Source of the DNA: a virus
Reading direction: 5' to 3' (one strand)
Length of the DNA: 36,775 nucleotides
Virus record (IMG/VR): IMGVR_UViG_3300030382_000517
Span: 1-36,775 of that record
Positions 5,075 to 21,300 of this stretch are shown here, in pieces. Each line of letters starts with the position of its first letter. Position 1 is the first letter of the stretch. The translations under genes were made by a program, and so were the position numbers. The notes below the pieces were generated by a model, which was given only the letters and a program-made list of their open reading frames with translations, did not search any database and was not told the DNA's origin.

Positions 5075-6952
5075 TTATAAGGATGGAAATTCCATCCCCA
5101 TTTGACCCTGTAATTGGGCCAACAACTCTGGAGGCACGCCGCCGGTTGGAGCAAACGCTCCCGTGTCGGGGCCGGGTGGTACAGGCACTTGACCAAATGG
5201 TGTAGGTGCTGCACCTGCCTCTTCAGAAGCAACTTCCATGTCTTGCGGAGTTTGCTGCTGAATAATAAACTTTTCAGGATCTTTAACATCGAATCCCATT
5301 GTTAAAACATGTTTCGCTAAAGCAACAGGATCTATGACAGTGCCTACGAGAGGTGCCATAGCATTTAATAATGAGACAGCCTGCTGTTTACGAATAGTGT
5401 CATTGATAGGTTGAGTTGAACCACCTTCAACAGTGAAATCAAATTCCCCTATAATGTCATCTCTGCTGTAAGTAAAGAACATGTCTTGACCGCCTTTACC
5501 GGCGATACGAGCCATCTGTTCACCTGTCATAAACTGTTGCATCAACTGGATAACCCGTCGTGCTAACTGTCCGATACTTATTTCAATTATTGCAAGTTTG
5601 TCTGCTGCGCGAGCATTACCTGCATCAGCGATAATGGATGCTTCTGTCGCTGTACGCCTAATTTCAGGCATCGAGCCACGGGCATATTCTGAAACACCAG
5701 ACACAGTGTTGATGTCTTGTTCAATGATGGCTGAAGTGTTATAAATTTCTGGTGATAAAGGAGTTTGTGGCATTGGTACCACAACTTCTTGCAAAGGTTT
5801 ATTTTCATCAACCACTGGAACTAAACGTCCATCTTGATCTGATTCTAACGCTTCGCGTCCTTCAGGACCGAATGAACGTTCGTGGTACAAATATTTTCTT
5901 GCATAACGTTTACGTGCATTTATAAGTTGCGTACGTGTTTTATCCAATTCGAGTTGTAAAGACTCTATTGATTCTAAATCACCCATTGGGTAAAAGAAAT
6001 CAGGAATGTCATAATTTCGTAACATTACAAAAGGTTGACCGTAAGCGTAAGGCATAGGCATAGGATCAACTAGAAACTCTTCGCTCGCTTGTGAGAACAC
6101 TGACATTGTGTTTTCTTCAATGTCATAATATTCGTAGATTGCTACCCTATCTTCGTCAGCCAAATATTGTTCTTGTTCTTGTATCTGACGGTTTTGAAAC
6201 ATCGGGTACAAAATACCGTCGGCTTGTAAACGTTTACGAACTGATGCTTTGTATCGTTTATCTTTTTTAGCCTCTTCCAAAGGACGCACTATGCGTTGAC
6301 AAATCCAATTAGCATCTTCTACACAAGTTGCTTCCGGGTCGATGTAAATGTCAAAAGGTGAAACTCTTTCAATGAAAGGCTGGTCTTCCACAACCATCAT
6401 TGTTGTTTCAGGAATGTTAACAATTATTTCTTCATCTGTTGGAAGATCACCTGCCATATCAATATTTTCCACAGCGAAAGTATCCGCTTCTAAAATAGCG
6501 TCATCTAACATTTCTTCACGTTCAGAGTCGCTGAGAGTTCGTTCTTGTTCAACAAACTTCCAACCGACTTTCATCCATGCGTGACCCGTTATAAGAAAGT
6601 CTTTAACTGCACGTCGGAAAGGTTTACGAAAATCGTGATGTCTCCACAAATAGTTAACTACCGCTTCAACAAACGCCGCTCTGTCTTGATCTTCTTCTTG
6701 GGTAGCGGAAACAACTATTTTAGGGTGATTAACCGAAACGGAAGGTGCTATAACATTAACTGTACTAAAAGCAAGATTAACTACGATCAGATCTTCATTA
6801 GTTGCTGTTGTTTGAGGCCATTGCCTTCCACGGTACAAGTCTGTCATACGTTGCCATAGCGAGTCGTAACCCATTTCTTCCCGCCAACGTGCTGATGATT
6901 CTAACCTTTTTTTAGCAGTGGCATATTGCTCTGCTCTGGTTTTACGTGCCAT
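5075..6952 (-). CDS. Portal protein, 625 aa
   Basis: A large, mostly helical protein located between the terminase genes and the scaffold, where portals are normally found. The N-terminal region (WREEMGYDSLWQRMTDLYRG, then NLAFSTVNVIAPSVSVNHPKI) and the middle segment SIESLQLELDKTRTQLINARKRYARKYL look like portal clip and stem regions. VSGVSEYARGSMPEIRRTATEAS is a portal-like loop and wing motif, where tunnel-loop residues often precede a long helix. The C-terminus is Pro/Gly/Gln-rich and probably flexible. The ATG overlaps the previous stop in a TAATG, implying coupled translation. It forms the DNA-entry channel at one capsid vertex. Confidence 0.85.
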   Translation of the reverse strand: MARKTRAEQYATAKKRLESSARWREEMGYDSLWQRMTDLYRGRQWPQTTATNEDLIVVNLAFSTVNVIAPSVSVNHPKIVVSATQEEDQDRAAFVEAVVNYLWRHHDFRKPFRRAVKDFLITGHAWMKVGWKFVEQERTLSDSEREEMLDDAILEADTFAVENIDMAGDLPTDEEIIVNIPETTMMVVEDQPFIERVSPFDIYIDPEATCVEDANWICQRIVRPLEEAKKDKRYKASVRKRLQADGILYPMFQNRQIQEQEQYLADEDRVAIYEYYDIEENTMSVFSQASEEFLVDPMPMPYAYGQPFVMLRNYDIPDFFYPMGDLESIESLQLELDKTRTQLINARKRYARKYLYHERSFGPEGREALESDQDGRLVPVVDENKPLQEVVVPMPQTPLSPEIYNTSAIIEQDINTVSGVSEYARGSMPEIRRTATEASIIADAGNARAADKLAIIEISIGQLARRVIQLMQQFMTGEQMARIAGKGGQDMFFTYSRDDIIGEFDFTVEGGSTQPINDTIRKQQAVSLLNAMAPLVGTVIDPVALAKHVLTMGFDVKDPEKFIIQQQTPQDMEVASEEAGAAPTPFGQVPVPPGPDTGAFAPTGGVPPELLAQLQGQMGMEFPSL

Positions 6953-7560: not shown

Positions 7561-8226
7561 TTACAGTGTCCCACGTATACTATGTTTACCTATCAACATT
7601 TCATCAGTTTCCTCTGGTTTAACCATTCTAGCAAACCAATCCACAGTCCAATAATCGTCAGTTTTCGTTGAATACTCAGGCATAAACGCATACTGGCGCA
7701 TTTCATTAGCCAACGCTAAAGCCATAACACGGTCATCATGCGGGCTACCTGACATAGTACCCCTGCTTGTACGCACATAAGTACGTAACTCAGCCAAAGT
7801 AAACCTATCGTGAATCGTTAACTCTTCTGAACGTAAAGCCATACCAAGATCATCAATCAACAAAGGTTTAGTCGTTCTAGTAGTTTTCCAACCAAACTCT
7901 TGAGACACTTTAGAAGTTGACTGATTCAAACTTCTTTTACGAAAAAGATTAGGGTGACCTAAATGACGCAACTGAACCAACGTAGTTAAACCATGATTGT
8001 TTGATTCCACGCAAGTCAAACCGTCGTTATACCACAACGCCAAATTGTACACTTCATTAGCCAAAGTATCAGGTGGTATGTGACCATGCCAAATAGCAAC
8101 CTGCTCACCACTGCGTACATCTAACACTTGAGCACAAGAATAGTCGCCGTGGATTAAACCTTCCGCTGTGTCAACACCTAAACAATAAATGTGGTTTGCT
8201 TCCGGCTCACGCCAAACTGTAAGCAT
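7561..8226 (-). CDS. terL: Terminase large subunit, nuclease part (second half of a split TerL), 221 aa
   Basis: This ORF carries the RNase-H-like nuclease half of a phage terminase. The three acidic positions expected for two-metal catalysis are visible: Asp19 in LGVDTAEGL, Glu74 in TCVESNNHG, and Asp164/Asp165 in SPHDDRVMALALA. The ATPase half is in the upstream ORF, in a different frame, overlapping by 20 bases. The second ORF opens at an ATG preceded at 10 bases by GGAG, so reinitiation is possible. Alternatively a +1 shift in the overlap would make one chain of about 510 aa, a normal TerL length. It would cut concatemeric phage DNA during packaging. A sequencing or assembly indel is the main rival explanation for the split. 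Confidence 0.85.
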   Translation of the reverse strand: MLTVWREPEANHIYCLGVDTAEGLIHGDYSCAQVLDVRSGEQVAIWHGHIPPDTLANEVYNLALWYNDGLTCVESNNHGLTTLVQLRHLGHPNLFRKRSLNQSTSKVSQEFGWKTTRTTKPLLIDDLGMALRSEELTIHDRFTLAELRTYVRTSRGTMSGSPHDDRVMALALANEMRQYAFMPEYSTKTDDYWTVDWFARMVKPEETDEMLIGKHSIRGTL

Positions 8227-9112
8227 CTTTTCTAAACTCCACTACTTTCGGATGAGGGTTCCACAAATACCCTCCTTGACCTTCTTCTATTTGACCTGCC
8301 ATACTTTCTAACACATCCAAATCAAACACAGGGTTACCAGACTTAATAAACGCCTCTTCAGGACTGGTCGGATACTCTTGAGCCAACTGCCACGCCAACA
8401 TAGATTCTTTCTTAGACTGATACCAAGTCTCATCCCTGTCCTCAGTAGCAGACCAAGGGAAAAACATTGGTTCAAACTTGTTGGTACCAGTTTCAGAACC
8501 AACCCACAGTTCGTGAAAAAAGTTACCCGAACCGTTAGCAGTAGACAAACCTATAATCCTACCGCCAACATCAGCGACAGGTTCTATAGAAGCCCACGCT
8601 TCTTCAGGGTTTGGAAGGAACGCCCATTCGTCAACCACAACCAGCGTAGCCGACTCACCTCTAGCAGGATCGGATGCTGAAGGCATTGAAGTAATTTGAG
8701 AACCATTATCAAACCCCATTTTCTGCTGATGTTCAACAGTTGATTTCGGACCACGCGACACCATCCATTCAGGTAAATGCTGAAAACCATACTTTGATTT
8801 TCTTAATAATAAAACAGACTCACGTTCAGTACGAGAAAGATCAATAATGTTCTGATCAGAGAAAAAGAACGCTAACCAAAACTGGTGAGCAGCAACAAGA
8901 GTAGTCCAACCTATCTGACGTGCTTTTAAGGTGAGACTGTAACGGTTTGTTTCCCAGTGTTGTAATGCGGTAGATTGCGCACGTCGTAAATCAAATAGGA
9001 TACGCCCGTGAGCAGGATGAGCAATATGCCAATACTTATGTAGGAAATAAGACTCATCTCTTTCACAACGTCTCCACTCAGCCTCTTGTTGCAGTTCTGT
9101 TAAACGAGACAC
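8207..9112 (-). CDS. terL: Terminase large subunit, ATPase part (first half of a split TerL), 301 aa
   Basis: Contains the packaging-motor ATPase: a terminase-type Walker A at residues 63-71 (KARQIGWTT), Walker B with catalytic Glu at 157-162 (LVVVDE), and a coupling motif STA at 190-192. It ends after YSLA at a TGA, just where the linker to the nuclease domain would start, while the nuclease continues in another frame. The start is a GTG whose first base is the last base of the preceding zinc-ribbon gene's TAG (TAGTG), so it is translationally coupled. The motor would pump DNA through the portal. Both halves keep intact motifs, so decay looks unlikely. Confidence 0.88.
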   Translation of the reverse strand: MSRLTELQQEAEWRRCERDESYFLHKYWHIAHPAHGRILFDLRRAQSTALQHWETNRYSLTLKARQIGWTTLVAAHQFWLAFFFSDQNIIDLSRTERESVLLLRKSKYGFQHLPEWMVSRGPKSTVEHQQKMGFDNGSQITSMPSASDPARGESATLVVVDEWAFLPNPEEAWASIEPVADVGGRIIGLSTANGSGNFFHELWVGSETGTNKFEPMFFPWSATEDRDETWYQSKKESMLAWQLAQEYPTSPEEAFIKSGNPVFDLDVLESMAGQIEEGQGGYLWNPHPKVVEFRKDAYSLA

Positions 9113-9725: not shown

Positions 9726-10649
9726 TTATCCAAGTAAATCATCAAGACTTTCACCATATTTTTCAAATAATTTTGCTTGATCTATAAGCCAATTTGAAGC
9801 CTCTTTAGCATTTTTTTCATTTACTGCTTCGTTAAAATTAACTGATTGTTGTGTCGTAAGTTTAGTTGGGTTCAACCCTTGAATATCGTTCAAATAAAAT
9901 CGTCGAATATCGTCATATATTGCATGGACATCTCTCCCTTGTCCGCGTTGGAGAACTGCCGCTTCAGCGGCGGTGTATGGTTGATCCATGTATTTCCAAT
10001 CTAAAGTGTCATAAAATAGTTGCGTTAACTCAGGATCACCTCCTGTTATAAGTTTTGTGTAACCACTCTCATCTGCCATCTCTCCAAAGTGAATACCCAT
10101 ATCTGTTACAGGTCGACGTATTTTAGGTGTAGGAGTTCGTGCAATTCCCAGCGATTTCAACTCATCAACCTGTTTAACAACATCTACTGCTTCATCACTA
10201 CTACGAACTAATCTTTTAATTGCTTTAATTACATCAGGAGCAATTTTTATTGCAGGACCTACAACCATACCAGCCGCTTTAGGCACACCCGGATACATAT
10301 CACCCTCATGCACACCTGTAGCACCAAGATCTCTACCTCTTAAAGGTTGCATCATTCTTACAGCCGTTTCTGCTTTTGCCCTCCCCCCATATAAAGGGTT
10401 TGTAGGTGTAAGTGCCGCTCCCTGTGGTGATCTTTCATCAAGCCAACCAGCGGCACTCGCAGCCTTCTCGATCACAGCATCCAACCAGCCTCCCCATGGA
10501 CCCATATAAGGTTTAGATTCAGGTTTCATAGGACGATTAGCAAAACGCGGATCCCTATAATCCTGAGACAACACCTCAGGATTCATATTCTCCTCAGCAA
10601 CCTGACGTATCACATTATCCATCCAATACTGGCGACTATCCATTACCAT
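9726..10649 (-). CDS. Unknown protein between small and large terminase genes, 307 aa
   Basis: Unrecognised. The start is taken as the ATG at 10649, six bases after GAGAG; an ATG two codons on (10643) and a TTG one codon earlier (10652) are alternatives. The N-terminus (QYWMDNVIRQVAEENMNPEV) looks helical, followed by Gly/Pro/Met-rich linkers such as PYMGPWGGW and MMQPLRGRDLG, a hydrophobic patch near residues 125-145 (AAGMVVGPAIKIAPDVIKAIK), and a charged C-terminus. Low sequence complexity is not marked. It overlaps the upstream TerS-like gene by 14 bases. Its place in the packaging operon suggests a virion or packaging accessory, but no catalytic motif could be identified. Confidence 0.6.
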   Translation of the reverse strand: MVMDSRQYWMDNVIRQVAEENMNPEVLSQDYRDPRFANRPMKPESKPYMGPWGGWLDAVIEKAASAAGWLDERSPQGAALTPTNPLYGGRAKAETAVRMMQPLRGRDLGATGVHEGDMYPGVPKAAGMVVGPAIKIAPDVIKAIKRLVRSSDEAVDVVKQVDELKSLGIARTPTPKIRRPVTDMGIHFGEMADESGYTKLITGGDPELTQLFYDTLDWKYMDQPYTAAEAAVLQRGQGRDVHAIYDDIRRFYLNDIQGLNPTKLTTQQSVNFNEAVNEKNAKEASNWLIDQAKLFEKYGESLDDLLG

Positions 10650-11094
10650 CAACCACTCTCAGATGATGAATTTGTGCCTCCAACTCATCAGCCAACTCGC
10701 CATCAGACATAGCAGCCGCATCCCTGTCCTCAACAACAACACGACGCTTAGGAGTAAACTTCTCAATATACTGCAAATACAAAGACGCAGCCTGAACAGA
10801 CCCACCCACAGCCTGAGTGTGCAAAGCATCAATAACACCCTGCGTTCTCTCAGGATGAATATTCAACTCCGCAGCGCGACGATCCCACTCCTTAGCAAAA
10901 CGAGCATCACGCTTAATACGACGAATAGAATCAGGACTAATACCATTCTCCAAAGCCCAATCCTTCTGATGCTTAGGAACCCTTTCGGGTCCCTGAAGTA
11001 GCCAATCTAAAAGACTCTTCCACTTCTTAGGCATGATCTTTTCGCCTGTCTCTTTGTCTGTTTGCCAGCCGCGTCCGCCACCATTCTGAGCCAT
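10636..11094 (-). CDS. terS: Terminase small subunit-like DNA-binding protein, 152 aa
   Basis: The start is the ATG at 11094, ten bases after GGAGG; a longer frame upstream has no ribosome site and runs into control-region DNA. After an opening MAQNGGGRGWQTD comes a helix-turn-helix-like region around residues 35-65 (KHQKDWALENGISPDSIRRI), then a basic helix and an acidic C-terminus. This shape and its place as first gene of the packaging operon match phage terminase small subunits, which recognise packaging sites and regulate the large subunit. A transcriptional regulator is the alternative. It is divergent from the early genes, so control DNA is shared. Confidence 0.65.
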   Translation of the reverse strand: MAQNGGGRGWQTDKETGEKIMPKKWKSLLDWLLQGPERVPKHQKDWALENGISPDSIRRIKRDARFAKEWDRRAAELNIHPERTQGVIDALHTQAVGGSVQAASLYLQYIEKFTPKRRVVVEDRDAAAMSDGELADELEAQIHHLRVVDGNG

Positions 11095-11141
11095 AATAAG
11101 GAAACCTCCAATAAAAGTAGTGGTATTGTCCCAACACCCTA

Positions 11142-11163
11142 ATGTTACAATCATGTTACAATC
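11142..11163 (-). repeat. Tandem 11-bp repeats GATTGTAACAT x2
   Basis: On the minus strand two perfect, directly adjacent GATTGTAACAT units lie about 50-70 bases upstream of the small terminase start. TGTCCCA and TGGGACA flank them at a distance. The spacing of 11 bp puts both units on one helix face, as for a repressor or activator binding site that could control late transcription. No protein is known to bind here; the regulator is a guess. Confidence 0.6.
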
Positions 11164-11203
11164 AGCACTAAACAGTGGGACACTAAAACCTATAACATGA
11201 AGG

Positions 11204-11218
11204 GCATGACATGACATG
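11204..11218 (+). repeat. GCATGACATGACATG repeat, inverted relative to 16633-16646
   Basis: Contains two overlapping CATGACATG units. Its 14-base core CATGACATGACATG is the exact reverse complement of CATGTCATGTCATG at 16633-16646, 5.4 kb away. The same half-site recurs in a perfect 14-bp palindrome at 16679-16692. These are probably binding sites of one phage regulator or replication protein, or the ends of a mobile module. Confidence 0.65.
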
Positions 11219-11318
11219 AAAAGCAACTACCAAAAGTTGCGTACAGTCATCCGGTGAACCAACCTAAATCATGACCCGAACGCCTATGGATATCTATACA
11301 TATATCGCTGGCTTGGTG

Positions 11319-11344
11319 GGTACCCCCCCATGCGTGGGGCTACC
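11319..11344. other. GC-rich hairpin in the control region
   Basis: GGTA-C-CCCC pairs with GGGG-C-TACC around an 8-base loop, with one C-C mismatch. There is no following T run in either direction, so it is not a standard intrinsic terminator. It may be a structured origin element or a protein site; it lies next to a G-rich run and a second short ACCTTAAAGGT palindrome. Confidence 0.4.
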
Positions 11345-11354
11345 TTAAAGGTAA

Positions 11355-11374
11355 GGTTGAGGGTTAGGGTTGGG
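11355..11374 (+). other. G-rich run with telomere-like TTAGGG spacing
   Basis: Reads GGTTGAGGGTTAGGGTTGGG: one GG and three GGG tracts separated by 2-4 bases, the pattern of a potential G-quadruplex. It lies between a hairpin and the Fur/Zur-like palindrome in the divergent control region. The function is unknown; G-quadruplex formation depends on conditions not visible in sequence. Confidence 0.4.
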
Positions 11375-11390
11375 TTCTGGCTCTGTGTAT

Positions 11391-11405
11391 TGAGAATGAT
11401 TCTCA
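11391..11405. promoter_or_regulatory. Fur/Zur-like palindrome TGAGAATGATTCTCA
   Basis: A perfect 6-3-6 inverted repeat. It resembles Fur and Zur boxes, for example AATGATTCTCATT-type iron sites and TGAAAATGATTTTCA-type zinc sites known in bacteria. A TTGACT hexamer lies 9 bases downstream, so a bound metal-sensing repressor would sit next to a possible promoter. A 15-base palindrome of this kind can occur by chance, so confidence is moderate. Confidence 0.4.
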
Positions 11406-11464
11406 TTTTGTTCTTGACTTGATCGAACCAGCGCAAAACTAGTTACACCTTTGTTGTTTGTTTG

Positions 11465-11480
11465 TGTGACGAATGTCACA
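11465..11480. promoter_or_regulatory. Perfect CRP/GlxR-type site TGTGA-N6-TCACA
   Basis: The sequence TGTGACGAATGTCACA has both CRP half-sites exact with the standard 6-base spacer. The centre (11472-11473) lies about 65-70 bp upstream of the start point expected for the TTGACG/TTTATT promoter at 11505-11533, a spacing similar to activator sites at -61 or -71. By simple counting, the ten fixed bases should occur about 0.04 times in a random window of this size. Host CRP or GlxR is the likely reader. Confidence 0.55.
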
Positions 11481-11504
11481 TGAGGTTTTCTGTAGTTGCC
11501 TGTA

Positions 11505-11533
11505 TTGACGGGGTTTTTATTGCAAGATTTATT
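11505..11533 (+). promoter_or_regulatory. Candidate early promoter TTGACG-17-TTTATT
   Basis: TTGACG matches the sigma-70 -35 consensus at five of six positions, 17 bases before TTTATT, a four-of-six -10. The expected start point near 11540 leaves a leader of about 75 bases before the ATG at 11615, and the CRP-type palindrome sits upstream. The downstream gene group is rightward, so this is a reasonable early promoter. The -10 is weak, so an alternative start is possible. Confidence 0.4.
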
Positions 11534-11566
11534 GTTGCCTATGTCAGTAGTTGGTTGTTATTTAAG

Positions 11567-11614
11567 ATACGATTATTGGGTACCCAGAATTGAGTACAGA
11601 AAGAGAGAGAGACA
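11567..11614 (+). promoter_or_regulatory. Leader element 0: ACGAT box, hairpin and purine-rich ribosome site
   Basis: Contains ACGAT (11569-11573), the perfect palindrome TGGGTACCCA (11577-11586), then ACAGAAAGAGAGAGAGACA directly before the ATG at 11615. The same order (ACGAT, short hairpin, CAGAAA-GAGAG) occurs before three later genes. It lacks the larger upstream junction seen in elements at 11777 and 12691. The purine run probably acts as the ribosome-binding segment. Confidence 0.5.
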
Positions 11615-11767
11615 ATGGAAATTATAGAAAAAGCAATTAGAGATTTAACAGTTGATGATCTTTACACATTGGCTTACAGATATGAAAATAAAAAGTTCAT
11701 AGGTCTAGTAGAGAAAGTTGTTGCAGAGTTAGCAAATAGTACTGGAACTTACAGAATCTATAACTAA
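11615..11767 (+). CDS. First early-block protein, 50 aa, unknown
   Basis: Found by reading the frame. MEIIEKAIRDLTVDDLYTLA is a charged amphipathic helix, followed by a short basic segment (YRYENKKF) and a second amphipathic helix (LVEKVVAELANSTG). No cysteine or signal peptide is visible. It is the first gene after the control region and has the AGAAAGAGAG-type leader. The compact helical shape and position suggest an early regulator or host-interaction protein, but no family was recognised. Confidence 0.65.
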   Translation: MEIIEKAIRDLTVDDLYTLAYRYENKKFIGLVEKVVAELANSTGTYRIYN

Positions 11768-20437: not shown

Positions 20438-20942
20438 ACTAGAACCTTGGGAATACGAATGGGCTACACACGTAGGATGCAGACGTTTCATAGAAAACTG
20501 GGAGAAACAAGACGCATCACATTACAAACGTGAATACATGGAAGACGACAGAACAGCACAAGTCGCCGCAGCAATAGGAGAACTGGCAGTAGCCAGAGTA
20601 ACCAACCAATACTGGGGAGGTCACGTCTGGCCGGGAAACCGTCACGTAGAAAACCGTAACCGCGCAGACGTAGGTAACAACATAGAAGTAAGAAGAGTTA
20701 GAACATCTAACAACGCGGCAGTGAGACGTAGACAACTAGGAAAAGGACTTGTCCTGTTCGTAGTTAGACCAGTACCACCAGAATTTAGAGAGGTGGAGAT
20801 GCTGGGATGGTTAGACCATGACGAAGCATGGGAACTCGGAGGACCTTCAGGTTATGATGCGGACAACACCCGTGTCATAGCCCCCGATTTTTTAAAGGCG
20901 GTAACAGAATATGGCGGGGAAACAACGCGAGTTCCCGACTGA
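20424..20942 (+). CDS. Probable PD-(D/E)XK-fold protein, 172 aa
   Basis: Starts at TTG 20424, or a second TTG two codons later; no ATG is suitably placed. Possible catalytic positions are Glu53 in AAIGELAVARV, Asp82 in RADVGNN and Glu88 in IEVRRVR, which would be D-x5-E-x-R, a variant of the nuclease core. The Arg-rich region (residues 89-103) could bind DNA. Similar small proteins are common in phages of diverse hosts. It overlaps both neighbours by 14 and 32 bases. A nuclease or restriction-like role is likely but not proved; the Lys of the core is replaced by Arg. Confidence 0.55.
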   Translation: MILIKLEPWEYEWATHVGCRRFIENWEKQDASHYKREYMEDDRTAQVAAAIGELAVARVTNQYWGGHVWPGNRHVENRNRADVGNNIEVRRVRTSNNAAVRRRQLGKGLVLFVVRPVPPEFREVEMLGWLDHDEAWELGGPSGYDADNTRVIAPDFLKAVTEYGGETTRVPD

Positions 20943-21300
20943 CCCAACAGACGCGTGGCAAGAAGGAAAGGTACAGTTCGGGGCTAGAAACAAACTACAC
21001 CCAACAAGACCAATGACAGAAATAGAAGCAATGATGCAAACAGCACCATCCGGTGCGGACCCCATCTTACCTATAGAAGTCACATTACATTTAAAAGAAA
21101 TCCTCGCTGATGTAATAGATGAACTGTCACCATTAGAAAAATGGATAGCCGAAAGACTCTTCATAGAGGGACTGTCATTACGAAAAGCAGGAGCAGTCTT
21201 AGGGATACCTAAAACATCACTCGCACGTAGACGTGACCTAATAAGACGTAAACTTATGGCACGTTTATTGGAACACCCAGTAGTTAAGGAATGGATCTAA
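20911..21300 (+). CDS. Sigma-region-4-like helix-turn-helix protein, 129 aa
   Basis: Residues 70-115 read LSPLEKWIAERLFIEGLSLR, then KAGAVLGIPKTSLARRRDLI and RRKL. This is the sigma-70 region-4 helix-turn-helix pattern: a helix ending at EGLS, the turn AGAVLGIP, and a recognition helix with Arg/Lys residues. The first 60 residues lack region 2, so it is not a full sigma factor. It could be an anti-sigma, co-sigma or transcription activator that switches to late genes. It is the last early gene and converges on the late operon's end. Confidence 0.7.
   Translation: MAGKQREFPTDPTDAWQEGKVQFGARNKLHPTRPMTEIEAMMQTAPSGADPILPIEVTLHLKEILADVIDELSPLEKWIAERLFIEGLSLRKAGAVLGIPKTSLARRRDLIRRKLMARLLEHPVVKEWI

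Follow-up and report, generated by a model that had tools for sequence, protein, structure and literature searches.

Host nutrient control of phage genes is already known for phosphate in cyanophages. In the examples given in PMC10976474 and the works it cites, marine cyanophages have PhoB (Pho) boxes, at pstS of P-SSM2 and at genes of S-PM2d. As is proposed for the locus described here, a marine phage gene is thereby placed under a host nutrient regulator through a box in its own DNA; in those examples the regulator responds to phosphate, and each box belongs to a single gene, in some cases an auxiliary metabolic gene. Binding is not reliably indicated by Pho boxes predicted in a phage (PMC10976474). 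Among bacterial regulators, Rex of Streptomyces avermitilis acts via the operator TTGTGAA-N4-TTCACAA on nuoA1, on its own gene rex and on wblE, a WhiB gene (PMC5355995). Our full-text literature searches found no precedent for Zur/Fur boxes in phage early promoters.

Here, we analysed one whole IMG/VR virus record (36,775 bases, 44% GC, hereafter the window), in which no end repeats were detected. Unlike the cyanophage cases, its predicted boxes are of the Fur family and of the CRP/Rex class, they lie in the main early/late control region, and they have no adjoining metabolic gene.

The phage and its divergent control region

The leftward genes of the window encode the large terminase, portal, scaffold and major capsid proteins, and the rightward genes a PD-(D/E)XK exonuclease, a DnaB-like helicase, a primase, RusA and a sigma-region-4-like HTH protein. 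Neither an integrase nor a repressor was recognised among the scanned window proteins, and the phage is lytic-looking. It is uncultured and probably marine, the related IMG/VR loci being presumably mostly marine to judge from the dataset numbers. Leftward and rightward transcription diverge from the main control region, a 521-bp intergenic stretch (11095-11614), which is the divergent early/late control region. The palindrome at 11465-11480, on which a previous sequence-only reading had focused, was said to lie upstream of the early genes, and the layout confirms it: exonuclease, helicase and primase genes run rightward from this region; terminase, portal and capsid genes run leftward.

On the left, the control region is bordered by a small-terminase-like gene (TerS; 10636-11094, minus strand), the first gene of the leftward operon, read from the sequence with its ATG at 11094. 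It carries neither a Pfam nor a PHROG label; it adjoins the large terminase gene and is conserved in the fetched loci. The large terminase itself is seemingly split into two overlapping ORFs (7561-8226 and 8207-9112), with ATPase-type and nuclease-type parts. On the right, the first rightward ORF (11615-11767, plus strand, 50 aa) has a purine-rich leader, AAAGAGAGAGAGAC, ahead of its ATG; no Pfam family was found for it, and it is not conserved in the relative L008. The sigma-region-4-like protein (20911-21300, plus strand) is encoded near the end of the early operon. Its Pfam matches to sigma-70 region 4 are sub-threshold (E 0.009-0.03), and it is a candidate late-gene switch.

For comparison, 160 family loci, many from the same contigs, were fetched with TerL and TerS queries, and the family counts given below were made on 50 distinct control regions.

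A zinc-type box in the control region

The control region contains a Zur (Fur-family) box, TGAGAATGATTCTCA (11391-11405), whose centre lies 74.5 bp upstream of that of the CRP-like palindrome and which was absent from the sequence-only reading. It occurs exactly in the window, where 0.0002 occurrences are expected. A matrix built from sites of Acidimicrobiia, our tentative host group, gives it 28.7 bits, a score in which its flanks also fit the Acidimicrobiia sites; the next site in the window reaches 4.0 bits. The box motif, TGAGAATNATTCTCA, was found in 28 of 198 Acidimicrobiia genomes, mostly in one copy per genome, against 1 for the reversed control. In these genomes it mostly lies between the gene of a ZnuA-type lipoprotein (znuA) and a Fur-family gene, or before zip or the ABC-ATPase gene znuC, and because of this gene context we read it as the zinc-uptake (Zur) box of Acidimicrobiia. 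Only 3 of 98 genomes from the class of G002, a genome whose locus title reads Euryarchaeota, carry it. The phage box shares the identical 15-mer and similar flanks with the znuA/zur/zip/znuC boxes of Acidimicrobiia, and differs from them in being located in a phage without an adjoining zinc gene.

Zur-like boxes are present in 5 of the 50 family control regions (the window, L168/L169, L170, L174/L178 and L176); shuffled sequences give 0.01, and the reversed motif is absent. Some relatives carry the box in two or three copies, and the window in one. Beyond the family, the 18-mer around the box, TTGAGAATGATTCTCATT, was found in at least 119 IMG/VR stretches versus 3 for an equally palindromic reversed 18-mer, in a set that is not dereplicated and may contain prophages with host flanks. 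Among the matches listed, it is intergenic in 94 of 119 (79%) by simple ORF calling, and several of the 40 scanned genes neighbouring it are terminase genes. Tandem copies with a 23-nt period were observed in two of the loci L362-L480 (L390 and L407).

On these sequence comparisons, the Zur box is predicted with stronger support than the CRP-like palindrome. Some 140 bp separate it from the supposed early start downstream, and simple repression of the early promoter by Zur is therefore not obvious.

Two relatives were found binned in metagenome-assembled genomes (MAGs), of which one (TMED189) is assigned to the Acidimicrobiaceae and the other to the Euryarchaeota. In 296 Acidimicrobiia genomes, the sole close TerL match was the relative binned in the Acidimicrobiaceae MAG. 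At the DNA level, neither close nor distant matches to the window were found in the phage collection, and protein searches with TerL and the capsid found distant phages only, with no named host. Acidimicrobiia is proposed only tentatively as the host group. Other bacteria also use Fur-family boxes of such form, so the Zur and Rex boxes agree with an Acidimicrobiia host without proving it. A 93-kb contig (L151, G298; L236-L240), retrieved in search of flanking host DNA, is a relative phage only in its first 40 kb or so; the remaining 53 kb or so is different, higher-GC phage-like DNA, and the contig is probably a chimeric assembly.

The CRP-like palindrome and its candidate regulators

The palindrome TGTGACGAATGTCACA (11465-11480) is a CRP/Rex-class operator-like site. 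The sequence-only reading had reported both exact half-sites, TGTGA and TCACA, at the standard spacing, with an expectation of about 0.04 per window. Both statements are correct: on the plus strand, the palindrome is the single zero-mismatch match to TGTGA-N6-TCACA in 36,775 bases, and base composition predicts 0.040 exact matches per window, or 0.0006 for the intergenic stretch of 521 bp. When up to two mismatches are allowed, the window contains 21 matches versus 22.1 in shuffles, so that only the exact match is informative. The exact 16-mer has 35 copies in IMG/VR, compared with 12 for the reversed 16-mer.

Downstream of the palindrome lies a putative early promoter (11505-11533, plus strand, start at about 11540), with TTGACG at 11505-11510, TTTATT at 11528-11533 and 17 nt between them. 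TTTATT is a poor -10 (4 of 6, without the A at position 2), and the pair is not among the promoters listed by a promoter scan of the window. In Escherichia coli, class-I activity of CRP is highest near -61.5 and -71.5/-72.5. The centre of the palindrome had been described as near the classical class-I positions, which we could not uphold: its distance to the implied start, itself putative, is some 67-69 bp, and at about -68 it is half a helical turn or so off. The palindrome is thus not at a class-I/II-compatible position for a CRP/GlxR operator.

We then looked at the conservation of the site in the family. The relative L008, with a TerS identity of 93%, can be aligned across the control region, where 71% of positions agree. 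The longest stretch without a difference is a 32-nt block, TTGTTGTTTGTTTGTGTGACGAATGTCACATG (11451-11482, plus strand; column-shuffle P = 0.0017 at 71% mean identity), and the palindrome is identical in L008 at an unchanged offset. L008 also keeps the promoter hexamers and their spacing, as TTTACG-17-TTTATT. The sequence-only reading had suggested a search of related phages for the same site at the same spacing; L008 has it, but L010, which is as close as L008, is without it, and 47 of the 50 control regions have no exact site. Three, against 0.01 in shuffles, contain an exact TGTGA-N6-TCACA: those of the window, of L164 and of L008 (as L119). L164 has its own copy, TGTGACAAGTGTCACA, which ends 10 bp before the strong promoter TTGACA-16-TATGGT. 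L163, the twin of L164 and almost the same on the terminase side, is without the site. The reversed palindrome is found exactly once in the 50 control regions and, with at most one mismatch, in 4 of them versus 5 for the CRP-like palindrome; the family enrichment is therefore unconvincing alone. Most relatives are without both the CRP-like and the Zur boxes.

The sequence-only reading had assigned the palindrome to CRP/GlxR. The exact 10-base core and the 6-nt spacer do agree with such operators, but the assignment is not established, as the operator of Rex has the same TGTGA/TCACA core. In streamlined marine Acidimicrobiia, TTGTGAA-N4-TTCACAA lies ahead of rhodopsin genes and of nuoA and whiB, and such boxes are found at a distance of about 1.5 kb from rex. 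Likewise, the genome bin with the family phage contig L117 (G001) has two TGTGA-N6-TCACA sites, located before whiB and nuoA. A CRP query found no CRP in 13 streamlined Acidimicrobiia genomes, and rex is present in 53 of 60 genomes of the class. Matches to PF13545 in the streamlined genomes were considered as CRP and rejected, as the three proteins read resemble the DtxR type. For this reason, and with the CRP query empty, we dropped the CRP reading of these boxes for Rex. They are best read as putative Rex operators, and their position ahead of nuoA and a whiB gene is the one known from Streptomyces avermitilis (PMC5355995). In the Acidimicrobiia genomes L217-L229, Rex-type boxes precede whiB, nuoA and rhodopsin genes, which suggests that the Rex regulon of streamlined marine actinobacteria includes rhodopsin.

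The palindrome of the window could therefore be a Rex operator, through which Rex, sensing NADH/NAD+, would repress early transcription or gate it by redox. Besides the streamlined genomes, with their boxes, their rex genes and their lack of CRP, two observations favour this reading. The nuoA1 operator of S. avermitilis, TTGTGACCTGCTTCACAT, tolerates a C at the position of the C in the window site (PMC5355995). In addition, the control region of L010 contains TGTTCGTGAAAGTTTTCACAAAGT further upstream, which scores 25.1 bits with an Acidimicrobiia-derived matrix, shares 19 identical nucleotides with the site before whiB in the L117-containing genome bin, and is best read as a predicted Rex-type box. 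The window site itself fits less well: the 18-mer at 11464-11481, GTGTGACGAATGTCACAT, differs from TTGTGAA-N4-TTCACAA at 4 of 14 fixed positions, since the outer T/A pair is missing and the 16-mer has C/G at its positions 6 and 11, and its 7.2 bits with the same matrix about equal the score of a coding-region site at 6090. We consider Rex an unlikely regulator here, though one to be taken seriously. Positions 6 and 11 fit the CRP-type dialect better. GC-rich Acidimicrobiia do have CRP family proteins, whose recognition stretch reads S-R-E-R-V-N-K, and TGTGACNNNNGTCACA, in some cases before peptide-transporter-like genes, is found in such genomes, some of them with CRP family proteins, at about four times the frequency of the reversed control. 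Against CRP/GlxR stands the spacing to the putative promoter, which is off the class-I register. We put a CRP family regulator at 11465-11480 at a little below an even chance, and what is left beside CRP and Rex falls to another regulator or to none.

Proposed host-state sensing and its alternatives

The explanation that we favour, by a slight lean beyond even, is that the region 11095-11614 carries operators for host global regulators, namely the Zur box and a CRP-family or Rex-family site, and that the virus may read the metal and energy state of its host when starting its genes. Host Zur, responding to zinc, would bind at 11391-11405, and host CRP or Rex, responding to cAMP or NADH, at 11465-11480. 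The bound regulators would raise or lower rightward early transcription, and early expression would thereby follow host physiology. No homologue of Zur, Rex or CRP was found by tblastn in the window or in the fetched relatives. A role of the palindrome in sensing the cAMP or nutrient state of the host had been proposed from the sequence. Host sensing is plausible, because the Zur box lies 74 bp away and relatives have Zur- or Rex-type boxes in the same region; the CRP/cAMP link is not established. Relatives carry their own mixes of host-type boxes in the control region. The weakness of the putative promoters of this region counts against the explanation, and our confidence is held near one half because boxes predicted in phages can mislead as to actual binding (PMC10976474).

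An improbable alternative is that the palindromes are operators of a phage-encoded regulator that autoregulates the early genes, their likeness to host boxes being convergent. The control regions of relatives contain varied palindromes, CTTGTGCCACGTGGCACAAG and GTTAGGTTTGCCTAAC among them, enrichment is also seen for the reversed CRP-like control, and many early proteins have no family. However, the Zur box has its exact 15-mer in common with genome-encoded znuA/zur sites, and this 15-mer is present in phages whose first early genes differ. Similarly, L008 keeps the CRP-like site despite a different first early gene, and no repressor-like gene was found in the window. Pfam searches of the first early proteins of relatives revealed no DNA-binding family. 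A chance match without function at the CRP-like site, which we rate as less probable again, would agree with the 0.04 exact matches expected per window, with the many motif types that could catch the eye, and with reversed-palindrome controls that are not much rarer in the family. The preserved 32-nt block in L008, the placement of the site in the control region, the independent copy at the promoter of L164 and the excess of the exact 16-mer over its reversal in IMG/VR (35 vs. 12 copies) all argue against a chance match.

Two further readings seem very improbable to us. Copies of the box on replicating phage DNA could act as a decoy, soaking up host Zur and derepressing zinc uptake for the infection, much as in the laboratory Fur titration assay, instead of controlling a phage promoter. 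Several relatives do have two or three copies, and the box is far from the putative early promoter, but the window has only one copy, and that the box lies in the control region, and not at some other place in the genome, speaks for a role in transcription. The CRP-like palindrome could also act in RNA, as a hairpin, terminator or leader structure: a 10-bp stem can form, and a terminator scan lists the palindrome on the plus strand. Its fold z-score is only -1.5, however, its T tract is weak, no upstream gene reads into it, and TGTGA/TCACA is the core of a protein site. On the first three of these grounds, an intrinsic terminator at this position was rejected.

With operators for host regulators, the infection programme of abundant environmental phages would respond to metal and redox state. 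This significance rests on the presence of zinc-type and CRP/Rex-type sites in a single main control region without a recognisable repressor, on recurrence in the phage family and on strong over-representation in IMG/VR. Host prediction would also be aided, since control regions would carry the operator dialect of the host. As a broader and more doubtful proposal, to which we give appreciably less than even weight, boxes of host global regulators, chiefly of Fur-family metal sensors, may be common and unrecognised in the early/late control regions of environmental phages, tying phage transcription or host metal uptake to host zinc or iron and redox. The over-representation of Fur-family boxes in viral control regions is a general lead.

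Other elements were observed in the control regions. In L168, CTTGTGCCACGTGGCACAAG is present in two copies, one imperfect (about 505-525 and 640). In L170, GTTAGGTTTGCCTAAC (about 350) is a DtxR/IdeR-like palindrome; tested as TTAGGTNNNCCTAA in 148 genomes, it did not clearly exceed its reversed control. After the 32-nt block, the longest stretch that the window and L008 share without a difference (11282-11302) includes TATCTATACATA (11291-11302), an anchor found in the control regions of most relatives, where it sits between TerS and the early genes even with differing flanks. It is a candidate late promoter, for the sigma-like protein encoded at 20911-21300, or a candidate origin element. 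Finally, the 11-nt repeat ATGTTACAATC occurs in two copies at 11142-11163, enclosed by GTCCC and GGGAC and adjoining terS. It is also found in L011, and L062 has more copies; these repeats may be a packaging or operator site.
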